DNA from: Liolophura sinensis
Taxonomy: Eukaryota; Mollusca; Polyplacophora; Chitonida; Chitonidae
Reading direction: 5' to 3'
NCBI RefSeq assembly: GCF_032854445.1
Contig: NC_088306.1
Span: 28,679,764 to 28,743,763 of the forward strand
Length of the DNA stretch: 64,000 nt
Every line of letters starts with the position of its first letter. Position 1 is the first letter of the stretch. Made by a program: the position numbers and the translations under genes. Below, one piece after another: positions 21,650 through 64,000 of the stretch. The notes beneath the pieces are model-generated. The model was not told where the DNA came from. It did no database searches and worked only from the letters and a program-made list of their open reading frames with translations.

Positions 21650-21960
21650 GAACAATACAGTAAATACCGAGAGGAAAGTCAAAGCAGTGACGATAATATG
21701 AAGGTTGGCAAAGGTTACACGTAACCGTCGAATCCCGCATTGTGGCAATTCACCTTACACGGTTAGAAAAATTATGATATTTGGCAAGTGGTGAGGTTGG
21801 TGAATTTATTTGACGTCGCTTGTCCAGAATTACGCAAAAAGATATGTCATCGTTACATATAATATACAGATGGAAGCAATACAAAACCACTATACCTCAT
21901 CGTCGACTAGAAGATCCTAGGCTATGCAGGAATACAACATAAAATACTACATGATGGATA
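21650..21960 (+). mobile_element. Element A copy, head-to-tail with the one at 21960
   Basis: aagcagtgacgataatatga through gtcgcttgtccagaattacg. Confidence 0.6.
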
Positions 21961-22090
21961 GTAAAACCAAAAGAGCAGAGAGGAAAGTGTAATAACTAGG
22001 AAATAGTTTTTCGTGAAATCTGGACTTTTGTAAATTTATCTCAGTTATGGTTTTCTTTTAAGTGTTCATATTAATGGTTAAAAAAAGGCA
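21960..22090 (+). mobile_element. Element A, left part, interrupted by minisatellite D
   Basis: Matches other A copies from the gagcag...agtgt segment through ttttctttt and tgttcat, and runs without a break into the first 30-bp unit. Confidence 0.75.
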
Positions 22091-25000
22091 ATATTCACAT
22101 CTGTGAGCACCATGGCACCAACATTCACAACTCTGAGTACCATCACACCAACATTCACATCTCTGAGCACCTTCGCACCAACATTCACAACTCTGAGTAC
22201 CATCACATTAACATTCACATCTGTGAGCACCAATGCACCAACATTCACATCTGTGAGCACCATCGCACCAACATTCACATCTGTGAGCACCATTGCACCA
22301 ACATTCACAACTCTGAGCACAATCACATCAAGATTCACATCTGTGAGCACTATCGCGCCAACATTCACATCTCTAAGCACCATGACACCAACATTCATAT
22401 CTGTGAGCACCATCGCACCAACATTTACATCTGTGAGCACAATCACACCAACATTCACATCGCTGAGCACCATCGCACCAACATTCACATCTGTGAGCAC
22501 CATCGCACCAACATTCACATCTCTGAGAACAATCACACAAACATTCACATCTCTAAGCACAATCACACCAACATTCACATCTCTGAGCACAATCACACCA
22601 ATATTCACATCGCTAATCCCCATCACACCGACATTTACATCTCTAAGCACCATCGCACCAACATTCACAACTCTGAGCACAATCACACCAAGATTCAAAT
22701 CTGTGAGCACCATCGCGCCAACATTCACATCTCTAAGCACCATGACACCAACATTCACATCTGTGAGTACCATTGCACCAACATTTACATCTGTGAGCAC
22801 AATCACACCAACATTCACATCGCTGAGCACCATCGCACCAACATTCACATCTGTGAGCACCATCGCACCAAAATTCACATCTCCGAGAACAATCACACAA
22901 ACATTCACATCTCTGAGCACAATCACACCAATATTCACATCGCTGATTCCCATCACACCGACATTTACATCTCTGAGCACCATCGCACCAACATTCACAT
23001 CTGTGAGCACCATTGTACAAACATTCACATCTGTGAGCACCATCGCACCAACATTCACATCTCTGAGCACAATCACACCAACATTCACATCTCTGAGCAC
23101 CATTGCACCAACATTTACATCTGTGAGCACAATCACACCAACATTCACATCGCTGAGCACCATCGCACCAACATTCACATCTGTGAGCACCATCGCACCA
23201 AAATTCACATCTCCGAGAACAATCACACTAACATTCACATCTCTGAGCACCATCGCACCAACATTCACATCTCTGAGCACAATCACACCAATATTCACAT
23301 CGCTGATCCCCATCACACCGACATTTACATCTCTGAGCACCATCGCACCAACATTCACATCTCTGAGCACCATTGCACAAACATTCACATCTGTGAGCAC
23401 CATCGCACCAACATTCACATCTCTGAGAACAATCACACCAACATTCACATCTCTGAGCACCATTGCACCAACATTCACATCTCTGAGCACCATCACACCA
23501 ATAATCACAACTCTAAGCACAATCATACCAACATTCACATCAGTGAGAACCATCACACCAACATTCACAACTCTGAGCACCATCACACTAACATTCACAT
23601 CTGTGAGCACCATCGCACCAACATTCACATCTCTGAGCACAATCACACCAATATTCAAATCTCTGAGTATCATCACCCCAACATTCACATCTCTGAGCAC
23701 CATCGCACCAACATTCACAACTCTGAGCACAATCACACCAAGATTCAAATCTGTGAGCACCATCGCGCCAACATTCACATCTCTAAGCACCATGACACCA
23801 ACATTCACATCTCTGAGCACAATCACACTAACATTCACATCTCTGAGCACCATTGCACCAACATTCACATCTCTGAGCACCATCACACCAACATTCACAA
23901 CTCTAAGCACAATCACACCAACATTTACATCTCTGAGCACCATCACAGCAACATTCACAACTCTGCGCACTATCACACCAATAATCACAACTCTAAGCAC
24001 AATCATACCAACAATCACATCAATGAGAACCATCACACCAACATTCACAACTCTGAGCACCATCGCACAAACATTCACAACTCTGAGCACCATCACACTA
24101 ACATTCACATCTGTGAGCACCATCGCACCAACATTCACATCTCTGAGCACAATCACACCAATATTCAAATCTCTGAGTATCATCACCCCAACATTCACAT
24201 CTCTGAGCACCATTGCACCAACATTTACAACCCTGAGCACCATTACACCAACATTCATAAATCTGAGCACAATCACACCAACATTCACATCACTGAGGAC
24301 CTTTATACCAACATTCACATCTCTGAGCACAATCACACCAATATTCACATCGTTGAGCACAATCACACCAATATTCACATCGCTGAGCACTATCACATCG
24401 ACATTTACATCTCTATGCACTATCGCACCAACATTCACATCTCCGAACACCATCACACCAACATTCACATCGCTGAGCACAATCACACCAACATTCACAT
24501 CGCTAAGCACTATTCCACCAACATTCACATCTCTGAGCACAATCACACGAACATTCACATCTCTGAGCACAATCACACCAACATTCACATCTCTGAGCAC
24601 AATCACACCAATATTCACATCGCTGAGCACCATCACACCAACATTCACATCTCTAAGCACTATCACATCAACATTCACATCTCTGAGCACCATCACACCA
24701 ACATTCACATCTCTAAGCACCATCACACCAAAATTCACATCCCTGAGGACCATTACACCAACATTCACATCTCTGAGCACAATCACACCAACATTCACAT
24801 CTCTGAGCACCATCACACCAACATTTACATCTCTGAGCACCATTACACCAGCTTTCACATCTCTAAGCACAATCACACCAACATTCACATCTCTAAGCAC
24901 AATCACACCAACATTCACATCTCTAAGCACTATCACACCAACATTTACATCTCTAAGCACAATCACACCAACATTTACATCTCTAAGCAATATCAGACCA

Positions 25001-26495
25001 ACATTCACATCTCTGGGCACAATCACACCAACATTCAAATCTCTGAGCACAATCACACCAACATTTAAATCTCTGATCACCATCACACTAACATTCAAAT
25101 CTCCGAGCACCATTACACCGACATTTACATCTCTAAGCACCATTACACCAATATTCACATCTCTGAGCACAATCACAGCAACATTCACATCTCTGAGCTC
25201 CATCACACCAACATTCACATCTCTGAGCACAATCACACCAACATTCACATCTCTAAGCTCTATCACACCAACATTCACATCTCTAAGCACCATCACACCA
25301 ATATTTACATCTCTGACGACGATTACACCAACATGCACATCTCTGAGCACCATCACACCAATATTCAAATCTCTGAGCTCCATCACACCAACATTCACAT
25401 CTGTGAGAACCATCACACCAACATTTACATCTCTGAGGACCATCACACCAACATTTACATCTCTGAGCACCATCACACCAACATTCACCTCTCTGAGCAC
25501 CATCACACCAACATTCACATCTCTGAGCAAAATCACACCAACATTCACATCTCTGAATACCATCGCACCAATATTCACATCTCTGAGCACCATTGCACCA
25601 ACATTCACATCGCTGAGCACCATCACACCATTATTTACATCTGTGAGTACCATTGCTAGAACACTTACAACTGTGAACATCATCACACCAACATTCATAT
25701 CTCTATGCACCATCACACCAACATTTACATTTGTGAGGACAATCGCACCAACATTCTCCTCACTGAGCACCATTACACCAACATTCACATCTCTGAGCAC
25801 CATCACACCAACATTCACACCTCTGAGCACCATCACAAAACATTCACAACTCTGAGCACCATCACACCAACATTCACATCTCTGAGCACAATCACACCAA
25901 CATTCACATCTCTGAGCACCATCACACCAACATTCACATCTGTGAGAACCATCACACTAACATTCACATCTCTGAGCACCATTACATTAACATTTACATC
26001 TCTTAGCACCATTACACCAACATTCACATCTCTGAGCACCATCACACCAACATTCACACCTCTGAGCACCATCACAAAACATTCACAACTCTGAGCACCA
26101 TCACACCAACATTCACATCTCTGAGCACAATCACACCAACATTCACATCTCTGAGCACCATCACACCAACATTCACATCTGTGAGAACCATCACACTAAC
26201 ATTCACATCTCTGAGCACCATTACATTAACATTTACATCTCTGAGAACCATCACACCAACATTCACATCTCTGAGCACCATCACACCAACATTCACATCT
26301 GTGAGAACCATCACACTAACATTCACATCTCTGAGCACCATTACATTAACATTTACATCTCTGAGAACCATCACACCAACATTCACATCTGTGAGCACAA
26401 TCACACCAACGTTCACATCTCTGAGTACCATGGCAACAACATTTACATCTCTGAGCACCATCGCACCATCATTCACATCTCTGAGCACCATCGAT
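22091..26495. repeat. Minisatellite D, 30-bp unit, about 147 copies
   Basis: The unit is like accaacattcacatctctga plus gcaccatcac. The + strand is rich in A and C. Higher-order copies: the variant ctaatcccc at 22613, ctgattccc at 22943 and ctgatcccc at 23303 (330 and 360 bp apart); aataatcacaa at 23501 and 23981 (480 bp). A one-base deletion (catcacaaaa) at 25831 recurs at 26070, a 239-bp duplication. The first unit continues colinearly from an element A copy. Confidence 0.95.
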
Positions 26496-26504
26496 CACCT
26501 TTAA

Positions 26505-26710
26505 TTTGTTTATTTATTTATCTGATTGGCGTTTTATGCCGCACTCAAGAATATTTCACTTATACGACGGCGGCCAGCATTATGGTGGGGGTAAACAGGG
26601 CAGAGCCCGGGGAAAACGCACGACCATCCGTAGGTTGCTGATAGACCTTCCCACGGACGAACGAAGAGGAAGCCAGCATGAGCTGGGCTTAAACACACAG
26701 CGACAGCAAG
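26505..26710 (-). mobile_element. SINE family 1, minus strand
   Basis: Minus-strand tail, the block gcgttttatgccgcactcaa, the gcggccagcattatggtggg segment and part of the head. It lies between the end of minisatellite D and the right part of element A. Confidence 0.8.
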
Positions 26711-26729
26711 GCATAATTTATTACAATTT

Positions 26730-26800
26730 AGTACATTCAATGGACGTCACTAATCTAAAATTACTCAAAATTATGTCGTGTCGTCACATTTAACAAAGAT
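26730..26800 (+). mobile_element. Element A, right part
   Basis: ggacgtcactaatctaaaat, tactcaaaatt and gtcgtcacatttaac match the 3' half of other A copies, resuming the element cut at 22090. Confidence 0.7.
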
Positions 26801-27182
26801 GTTTTTTAAATTTATGTTGACAGTTGATAAATCGTCAACTTCCACGATCAGACAGTCTGGAAAGAAAGGTTTTGGAATCAGAACAAAACTCGCCCCAATC
26901 ACTAGAGAGTACAGTGAATGTCGTAACTCACATGCGGAAGTTTCACATTTGGTTGGGTCACATGTGTTTTGCTTTTCAGGGATTATCATGATATAGTGAT
27001 GGCCTTAAATGACGCATGATAAACGCCACCGCTCTGACACCCTGTGTTTCATTTTCCCTTTTATAACAACCAGGTTTCATGTACTGATCCTTTGCTATGT
27101 TCCCTACACGCTCCAGTAGAATGTGAGCTAACGTAACCATGCAACTGTTAGTATTATGTGAAGTTTAGTTCCGCTGAGAAAA

Positions 27183-44148: not shown

Positions 44149-61518
<17,370 letters not shown>

Positions 61519-61854
61519 GTAAGTTTGGTGTCCTCTTCTCCACCATAATGTGGTCTGGAATATTATTCCGGTCATGTCTTATCTGTGTTCAGTTGCATGA
61601 TGACCAGAGAGAAAAGTGCAGCAAAGCCCAGGCATCTCTCTTGACAAGTTTAGAATTCATCAGATTTCTTTTGAAAACTAGCTAAAAAGATAAGCAAAGA
61701 GCCTTTAAGGAGAGAAGTGCAAATCAGTGTTTTTTCACAGTATTCTGTAGGATTGTTATTGACATTTAAAATATATCTGAAGAATATATGACGTAAGAAA
61801 GGAGTTTGTTTTTATTCCAAACCAAACATGTTAACTGCTATGGCTGTATTTACA

Positions 61855-63325
61855 GTATGTTCTACTATTTACCTACAATCTGTTCTACTACTTACTTTTA
61901 CTCTGTTCTACTATTTACCTTTACTCTGTTCTACTATTGACACACATTATAATCTATTATTTACTCACAATCTATTCTACTATTCACCAACATTCCTTTT
62001 TACTATTTACCCAAAATCTATTCTACAATTTACCCACGATATCTTCTACTATTTGCCCACAATCTGTTCTACTATCAACCTACAATGTGTTCTACTATTT
62101 ACCTACAACCTGTTCTGCTATTTACCAACAATCTCTTGGACAATTTACCTGTAATCTCTTGTACTACAATCTGTTTTGCTATTTATCTACAAGGTGTTCT
62201 ACTATTTACCTAAAATCTGTTCTATTATTTAAGTACAATCTGTTTTACAATTACATTTTACCTCTAATCTCTTCTACTAATTACTTGCATTTTGTTCTCC
62301 TAATAACCTATAATGTCTTCTACTATTTACCTGCAATCCTTTTTGCTTTTTACCTGGAATCTCTTCTACTATTTACCTACAATCTGTTCTGCTATTTACC
62401 TGCAATCTCGTCTAATATTTACCTATATTCTCTTCTTCTATTTTACTAAATACCTACAATCTGTTCTATTATTTACCTACACACTGTTCTACTATTTACC
62501 AACGATCTGTTCCACTATATACCTACAATGTCTTCTACTGTTTACATGCAATCCGTTTTACTATTTACCCATAATCTATTCTACTACTTACCCAGACTCT
62601 GTTCTACTATTGACCTACAATCAGTTTTGCCATTTACCCACCATCTCTGCTACTATTTACCTACAGTTTGTTTTAAGTATTTACCCAAAACCTCTCCTAC
62701 AATTTATCTACGATATCTTCTACTATTTCACTACAATCTCTTCTACTATTTACGTACAGTCTGTTTAACTATTTAACTAAAATCTCTTGTACTATTTACC
62801 TGTCATCTCTTGTACTAATTACCTGCAATCTGTTCTGCTATTAACCTACAATCTATTCTACTAGGTACCTTTAATCTCTACTACTATTTACCTGCAATCT
62901 GTTCTACTATTTACCTACAATATCTCCTATACTATTTATCTACAATGTGTTCTACTATTTACATACAATCTGTGCTGCTATTTACCTGCAATCTGTTCGG
63001 GTGATTGCCTACATTGTCCTCTACTATTTACGTACAATTTGCTTTAGAATTTACCCAAAATCTGTTCTACTAATTACCTACGATATCTTCCACTATTTCC
63101 CTACAATCTCTTCTACTTTTTACCTATAATCCGTAATGCCTTGTACAATTTACCTGTGATCTCTTGTACTATTTCCCTAGAATCTGTTTTGACTTTTACC
63201 TACGAGGTGTTCTGCAATTTACCTACAATATCTTTATTTATTTACCTGCAATCTCTTCTCTCATTTGTCTACAATCTCTTCTACTATTTACCCACAATCT
63301 CTTCTATTACATACCTACATTCTGT
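61855..63325. repeat. Minisatellite F block 5
   Basis: About 64 degenerate 23-bp units downstream of DED exon 5, ending at a SINE. From about 63133 the sequence is a near copy of 49934 onward. Confidence 0.9.
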
Positions 63326-63329
63326 TCTG

Positions 63330-63533
63330 GGGGCCTCTGTGGCTGAGTTGTTTAGCGCGCTAGCGCAGCGTAATGACTCAGTAGTCTCTCACCAACGCGG
63401 TCGCTGTGAATTCAAGTTCAGCTCATTCTGCCTTCTTCTCCGGCCGTACGTGGGAAGGTTTGCCAGAAACCTGCGGATGGTCGTGGGTTTCCCCCATCGT
63501 AGTACAACGTAGAGCACCAATGAAAAAAAAAAA
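63330..63533 (+). mobile_element. tRNA-derived SINE (family 1), partner of 50129 copy
   Basis: Head with A box and B box, body through ccggccgtacgtgggaagg, short A tail. It is flanked by a near-perfect repeat (acattctgttctg before, acaatctgttctg after), a likely target-site duplication, though the host repeat makes this less certain. Confidence 0.85.
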
Positions 63534-63534
63534 A

Positions 63535-64000
63535 CAATCTGTTCTGATCTTTTTCTAAAATCGGTTCTACCATTTACCTACAAGATGCTCAACTTTTTAC
63601 CTACTATGTGTTATGCTATTTGTCTCCAATCTGTTCTACAATTTACCCACAATTTGTTCTTCTCCTGACTTACAATCTGTTCCGCTATTTACCTACTCTC
63701 TGCTTTACTGTTTACCTACAATCTTTTCTAATATTTACTTACAATCTGTTTTTCTATTTACCTAAAATCTCTTCTGCTATTTACCTACAATCTCTTTTAT
63801 TGTTGACCCACAATCTATTCCACGATTTATCCACAATCTGCTCTATTATTTACCTACAATCGCTTCTGCTATTTTCCTACAAACTGTTCTACTTATTATC
63901 CACAATCTATTCTGCTATTTACCTACAATCTGTTCTCCTGTTTACCTACAAATTTTTCTACTATTTACTTACTATCTGTTCTGCTGTTTATCTGCAATCT
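63535..64000. repeat. Minisatellite F block 6, runs off the window
   Basis: 23-bp units colinear with 50318-50428 plus 55545-55915. It preserves the site without the LINE. Confidence 0.9.

Follow-up and report, generated by a model that had tools for sequence, protein, structure and literature searches.

A 30-bp minisatellite of the chiton Liolophura sinensis that probably grew inside one copy of a dispersed repeat

The array and its borders

The window analysed here is the 64,000-base stretch at positions 28679764-28743763 of NC_088306.1 (C12) of the chiton Liolophura sinensis; genome-wide searches covered 609.46 Mb in 632 contigs. It carries a minisatellite at 22089-26492 on the forward strand, which Tandem Repeats Finder (TRF) reported as one array of period 30 and 146.9 copies and which we split into 147 units, 144 of 30 bp and three of 29 bp. 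The 144 full-length units show a mean pairwise divergence of 0.151, and no marked higher-order period was found in the 147-unit array at the lags tested. Three open frames of 997-1,292 codons overlap within the array, two on the forward strand (22082-25855 and 22075-25068) and one on the reverse strand (22078-25956). The window as a whole holds 13 tandem arrays over 14,570 of its 64,000 bases. A 23-bp unit (TTCTACTATTTACCTACAATCTG) forms several arrays, separated by gaps, over the 14 kb from 49936 to 64000, and neither this group nor the arrays at 8.5, 16.8 and 27.8 kb matched anything elsewhere within the window.

The minisatellite is bordered by pieces of a noncoding dispersed repeat, termed element A here, for which we derived a majority consensus of 378 bp from 20 copies, cut to one unit; this consensus holds one unit at the segment of interest and no tandem units. 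Copies of element A, whole or partial, are often arranged head to tail, and the first 20 consensus positions form the start of 61 of the 79 matches of at least 80 bases, the opposite end being ragged. The first genome survey returned 4,677 candidates, and one match was present in 42 kb drawn from 14 arbitrary places. Within the window, the copies at 1.4, 45.0 and 59.2 kb that an earlier note on this DNA had used for comparison were recovered by similarity searches (blastn) and are real.

Directly upstream of the array, a degraded 5' part of element A (consensus about 7-161) occupies 21939-22088 on the forward strand, as revealed by blastn against the 378-bp consensus and by alignment. Just upstream of this part, a second and more degraded fragment (consensus 26-114 and 233-298) lies at 21669-21868, also forward (blastn), which corrects the earlier reading of the array's surroundings. 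At the far side, a forward-strand SINE-like repeat (26505-26708) stands between the array and the remainder of the element; it was recognised by its 87.3% similarity to 6667-6463 on the minus strand, has similar copies at other places within the window, and offers only a weak candidate for a target duplication, ATTTATT at 26512 and 26716. Past it, element A resumes in the same orientation at 26714-26830, from about consensus position 223 (blastn and alignment): blastn matched consensus 234-294 to 26735-26795 at 82%, and, once the SINE-like repeat is removed, the sequence beyond the array can be aligned with the element starting at about 223. That is, the element does resume after the array and the SINE, at about 26714-26735, as the earlier note had it, with the correction that about 25 bp of element A are missing or unrecognisable between the array and the point of resumption.

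The first array unit (22089-22118, forward), identified by alignment, register test and unit split, is collinear with element A 162-191 and has the motif CATGGC. The earlier observation that this unit keeps CATGGC while the others mostly differ is largely accurate: the motif occurs in only two of the 147 units, the first one and a unit near the far end (26407-26436, forward; unit split), and at the same site 88 units read ATCAC and 25 read ATCGC. The presence of CATGGC at the array edges is as one would expect if homogenisation were weakest in the edge units. In overall likeness to element A, the first unit shares the top rank among the 147 with one other unit, and there is no clear trend in likeness along the array.

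Origin of the repeat unit

Consensus positions 7-189 of element A match 21939-22116 at 69.9% identity (blastn against the 378-bp consensus), and the alignment runs gaplessly from the flank into the first unit, as far as CACCATGGC. With the register set by the flank, the first unit shares 20 of 30 bases with element A 162-191, a score reached by none of 100,000 shuffles and by none of 5,000 30-mers taken from other parts of the window, which bears out the earlier claim that the element's flank continues in register into the array. The consensus of the array scores 18/30 at the same register (reached by 34 of 100,000 shuffles) and has its best place in element A there, the runner-up scoring 14; the best element window fell at 160-164 for 116 of 146 successive 30-mers of the array, although these do not amount to 116 independent tests since the units are related. 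Aligned locally to element A with its position left free, the array consensus gave no significant score (483 of 2,000 shuffles equalled it), and the case for an origin from the element therefore rests on the register. Likeness is unevenly placed as well, with only nine identities in the first 17 bases of the 30-bp unit.

The unit also appears to be private to this locus. A 41-base piece of the array, searched genome-wide with up to three mismatches, gave 87 forward matches, all 87 inside this array, and the same search gave no reverse-strand match genome-wide and none in the control. Hence, of the two outcomes that the earlier note had named as telling against it, neither was observed: the unit is not widespread apart from element A, and the consensus of 20 other copies does hold a segment alignable at this position. 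A unit in register with the flanking element, continuation of the element past the array, and a unit that is not dispersed are the features of a transposable element (TE)-derived minisatellite that arose in place, and all three are found here. They support the earlier view of the monomer as a fragment of element A amplified where it stood, and we estimate a probability of roughly 0.86 that the array is the internal segment at about 162-191 multiplied in place after the insertion of this copy.

Two other identities for the array have to be weighed against this one. If the array were older than element A or unrelated to it, the match of the first unit would be a matter of chance or of a small capture; the insignificant free search and a unit of 30 bp rather than 39 bp, the length most common at the other loci described below, speak for such an origin. 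However, we regard it as very improbable given the continuity of register, unmatched in 100,000 shuffles, the presence of element A on both sides, the privacy of the unit, and the eight other copies in which this segment has been amplified. Less probable still, by a little, is a coding origin, in which the array would be a mucin-like repeat exon read in the frame TFTSLSTITP (22082-25855, 1,257 codons). This frame is long and encodes a Thr/Ser-rich decapeptide repeat, its third positions are the most variable, and 43.0% of the common variants are synonymous vs. 28.9% of all possible changes; on the other hand, two further frames (997 and 1,292 codons) are open too, as a 30-bp unit allows, distinct changes show no clear synonymous excess (31.1% vs. 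28.9%), the three 29-bp units disrupt the frame towards its end, inspection by eye revealed no convincing splice site, and a Pfam search with a 300-codon piece returned one match, below the cut-off. Based on the open frames, the synonymous test and the Pfam search, a coding mucin-like exon is not supported. Amplification of an element A segment in place remains the favoured reading, and the array is most likely a neutral product of mutation, for which we propose no function.

Other expanded copies of element A

At least eight further copies of element A have the same internal segment in amplified form, mostly as 39-bp units and with the element on at least one side. The check that the earlier note had proposed, for other loci multiplied at the same internal place, was accordingly productive as to place but not as to unit, the units being about 37-46 bp long and not the 30-bp unit itself. 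One expanded copy (L010) came from a set of 20 loci retrieved for the similarity of their flanks; its array holds 9.3 units of 39 bp at this position and is bordered by element A on both sides. A query of three 39-bp units in tandem yielded seven more multi-unit loci among the 40 scored of 775 candidates, and all seven, each of which was fetched, adjoin element A on one side or both. The total of eight is a minimum, as L010 was absent among the matches listed for the triple query. Element A lies on both sides of the arrays at L070 (units of about 46 bp) and L071 (39 bp), on one side only at L065 and L068 (both 39 bp) and L069 (37-39 bp), and in full on one side with about 15 bp on the other at L066 (39 bp), while L067 (C2:4766300-4767500) is a head-to-head inverted pair of arrays with 37-39-bp units and element A at both outer ends.

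The joints between units in the 39-bp arrays offer a clue to how the expansion may have started. Element A contains imperfect direct repeats 39 bp apart, GC(A/T)TAAATAG at position 149 and GCTTAAGCAG at 188, and the joints are of the kind CTTAAGCAG-TAGCAA, that is, the downstream repeat fused to the sequence that follows the upstream one. Joints of this form would be expected if short direct repeats had slipped or exchanged unequally, suggesting that such events may have founded these arrays. The best alignment of the 30-bp unit of the window treats it as the fused unit of 39 bp minus 9 bp right after CATGGC. Founding repeats one unit apart fit the 39-bp arrays; stronger pairs exist in element A (those 55 and 70 bp apart score 10/12, and the 39-bp pair 9/12 in its T variant only), and to fit this scheme the 30-bp unit of the window would require either the loss of another 9 bp or a separate start. 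The idea that the best direct repeats of element A predict where arrays form was rejected, given that a control segment inside the 55-bp unit gave no multi-row locus among 40 scored. A hairpin at the amplified segment was likewise rejected, 199 of 200 shuffles folding at least as well.

The upstream repeat is kept in seven of the nine expanded copies (the window, L010, L065, L066, L069, L070 and L071; L067 and L068 lack it and were dropped), and by eye all seven have T at element position 151, which gives GCTTAA and resembles the downstream repeat. The same base was read by eye in 27 of the 100 copies listed of 363 exact matches (Fisher 0.0002) and in nine of the 19 loci L009-L028 without L010, one copy per locus (Fisher 0.02); a wider tally (41 A and 12 T of 58) was left unused as it includes the window copy, and L027 and L037 twice. 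This preference for T is no more than a hint, and it may reflect the age of the copies.

Taken together, these observations can be arranged in the following sequence of events, under the favoured reading. A copy of element A would have inserted first, and its internal segment at about 162-191 would then have multiplied on the spot. The first duplication would have come about when short imperfect direct repeats paired out of register or exchanged unequally, as we infer from the joints; the unit of the window would either have had its own start at 30 bp or have lost 9 bp from a 39-bp unit later. More unequal exchange or slippage would have brought the array to 147 units, and a SINE-like repeat would have inserted into its far border.

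Whether the expanded copies descend from one another or were amplified separately can be approached from their units, flanks and joints. Mean distances between units are 0.07-0.19 within arrays and 0.16-0.39 between them, and every unit compared has its closest match in its own array at L010 (4/4), L066 (11/11), L068 (13/13), L069 (6/6) and L070 (7/7), as do 14 of 15 units of the window, but only 4 of 8 of L065 and 2 of 4 and 0 of 4 in the two halves of L067; these counts include only part of the units of L010, L065 and L068, and L071 contributed none. Flank divergence is 0.245 between expanded copies (21 pairs among the seven of nine with a usable 5' flank, that is, all except L065 and L067), 0.198 between expanded and unexpanded copies, and 0.141 between unexpanded copies, the last figure being lowered by a set partly chosen for likeness to one window copy. 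By their flanks, the expanded copies are apparently not a subfamily. The fused joint, searched genome-wide with up to three mismatches, gave 41 matches: five array loci account for 31, and the other 10 occur singly, their letters being those of the normal upstream repeat; two-unit copies dispersed through the genome were not found at this stringency. The unfused junction gave 3,052 matches genome-wide at the same stringency, and expansion is therefore rare.

An unlikely, though not negligible, alternative is that the duplicated segment was already present in a source element, was spread by transposition and later grew into arrays at some loci, a course suggested for LTR12 in a human study (PMC3389668) and described for the repeats borne by oyster Helentrons. 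In its favour, the same segment and mostly the same 39-bp unit recur at several loci, an older variant at position 151 may be common to the expanded copies, and unit variants are common to L067 and L069, which both lie on C2, 0.29 Mb apart, and may be related. Against it, fused joints at up to three mismatches are confined to the five array loci, apart from the 10 upstream-repeat-like singles, vs. 3,052 unfused ones, and the flanks of the expanded copies are no closer to one another than to those of other copies. Thus, the expansion shows no sign of spread by transposition at the three-mismatch stringency, and the flanks and junction counts together point to separate local amplifications as the probable origin of these arrays.

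Genomic background and known systems

The recurrence of arrays at one internal place raises the further question, compatible with amplification in place, of whether segment 153-197 is a strong and specific hotspot of element A, which we consider doubtful. The segment yielded seven multi-unit loci vs. one, two and five for three further segments of 39 bp, with 40 candidates scored in each case: the first control gave a single imperfect duplication (L073), and the second gave L074 (two copies) and L072 (C13:26035000-26036500), where 26 copies of a 36-bp unit arose in place from element A 109-143 with the element on both sides. If only the first two controls are counted, the contrast is 7/40 vs. 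3/80 (Fisher 0.015), a value that we do not rely on because the third control weakened it, leaving seven vs. five loci, two of the five being perhaps one duplicated locus and all five unfetched. The hotspot is further opposed by arrays born in place from other segments, not only L072 but also L035 (30 bp; from the first genome survey), L046 (48 bp) and L048 (78 bp; both met unsought in a second set of 20 loci), and by the fact that the test unit was picked after L010 had been seen. Moreover, TRF detected 10 arrays in seven of 14 arbitrary 3-kb places, covering 7.3% of 42 kb or about one array per 4.2 kb, and the in-element arrays L010, L046 and L048, three among 40 loci, are in no clear excess over this background. 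Tandem arrays are common in this genome, and a special hotspot is therefore not demonstrated, nor is anything peculiar to element A needed; the element may be an ordinary target in an array-rich genome. The table of the genome paper lists 0.08% other/simple repeats and 14% unclassified (PMC11068029), and much of the tandem-array content of the genome may be within that 14%.

Beyond the earlier note, the present results add apparently separate origins at several loci, a direct-repeat junction, and arrays elsewhere in the element and in the genome. It is a tentative proposition, with the odds somewhat against it, that the element A family has undergone repeated independent minisatellite births at the same internal point and with the same founding junction in an array-rich genome. 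If this is true, TE copies would constitute a natural mutation-accumulation assay with thousands of known pre-amplification sequences, from which one could learn how often minisatellites are born, what rule their junctions follow and which sequence conditions must be in place beforehand. The origins of minisatellites are usually hard to trace because the starting sequence is lost; the sister copies of element A preserve it, and several copies have been caught after seemingly separate amplifications, making the founding junction and the rate readable. It also follows that molluscan tandem arrays can be single-locus products of dispersed repeats. None of the literature matches on chiton satellites, tandem repeats or TEs, judged by title and the start of the abstract, dealt with tandem arrays of chitons.

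Helentrons and Helitrons are recognised by terminal motifs, a 3' hairpin and a Rep-helicase partner. In the nonautonomous oyster Helentron CgHINE, central tandem repeats are described as carried and spread by the element (PMC7492417, PMC9659126). Like CgHINE (PMC7492417), element A of the chiton is molluscan and has internal tandem repeats in some copies; unlike it, element A is as a rule unexpanded, the window unit occurs in a single copy, and tandem units are neither found in most copies nor scattered along with the element. The Alu-derived minisatellites of Jurka and Gentles 2006, as described in later papers (PMC3389668, PMC9659126), are closer in that a TE piece became tandemly repeated owing to short direct repeats, and a TE piece is repeated in the chiton too, albeit in a different element and phylum.

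Closest in kind are the minisatellites reported to arise within individual TE copies in human, with some TE regions hit more than others (Ahmed and Liang 2012, PMC3389668), where 300 TE-derived arrays with flanking direct repeats of 5-20 bp were related to the model of Haber and Louis; a review, for its part, states that there is no conclusive evidence for preferred TE portions in the origin of minisatellites (PMC9659126). The chiton array resembles the human arrays, as described in that study, in having been born, in all likelihood, inside a single element copy, and it is a clear example of an already published route, the birth of a minisatellite from a piece of a TE. It differs from the human case (PMC3389668) in that the element is a chiton noncoding repeat of which nine copies have one and the same segment amplified, the unit mostly measuring about 39 bp, and in that 3,052 unexpanded junctions display the starting state.
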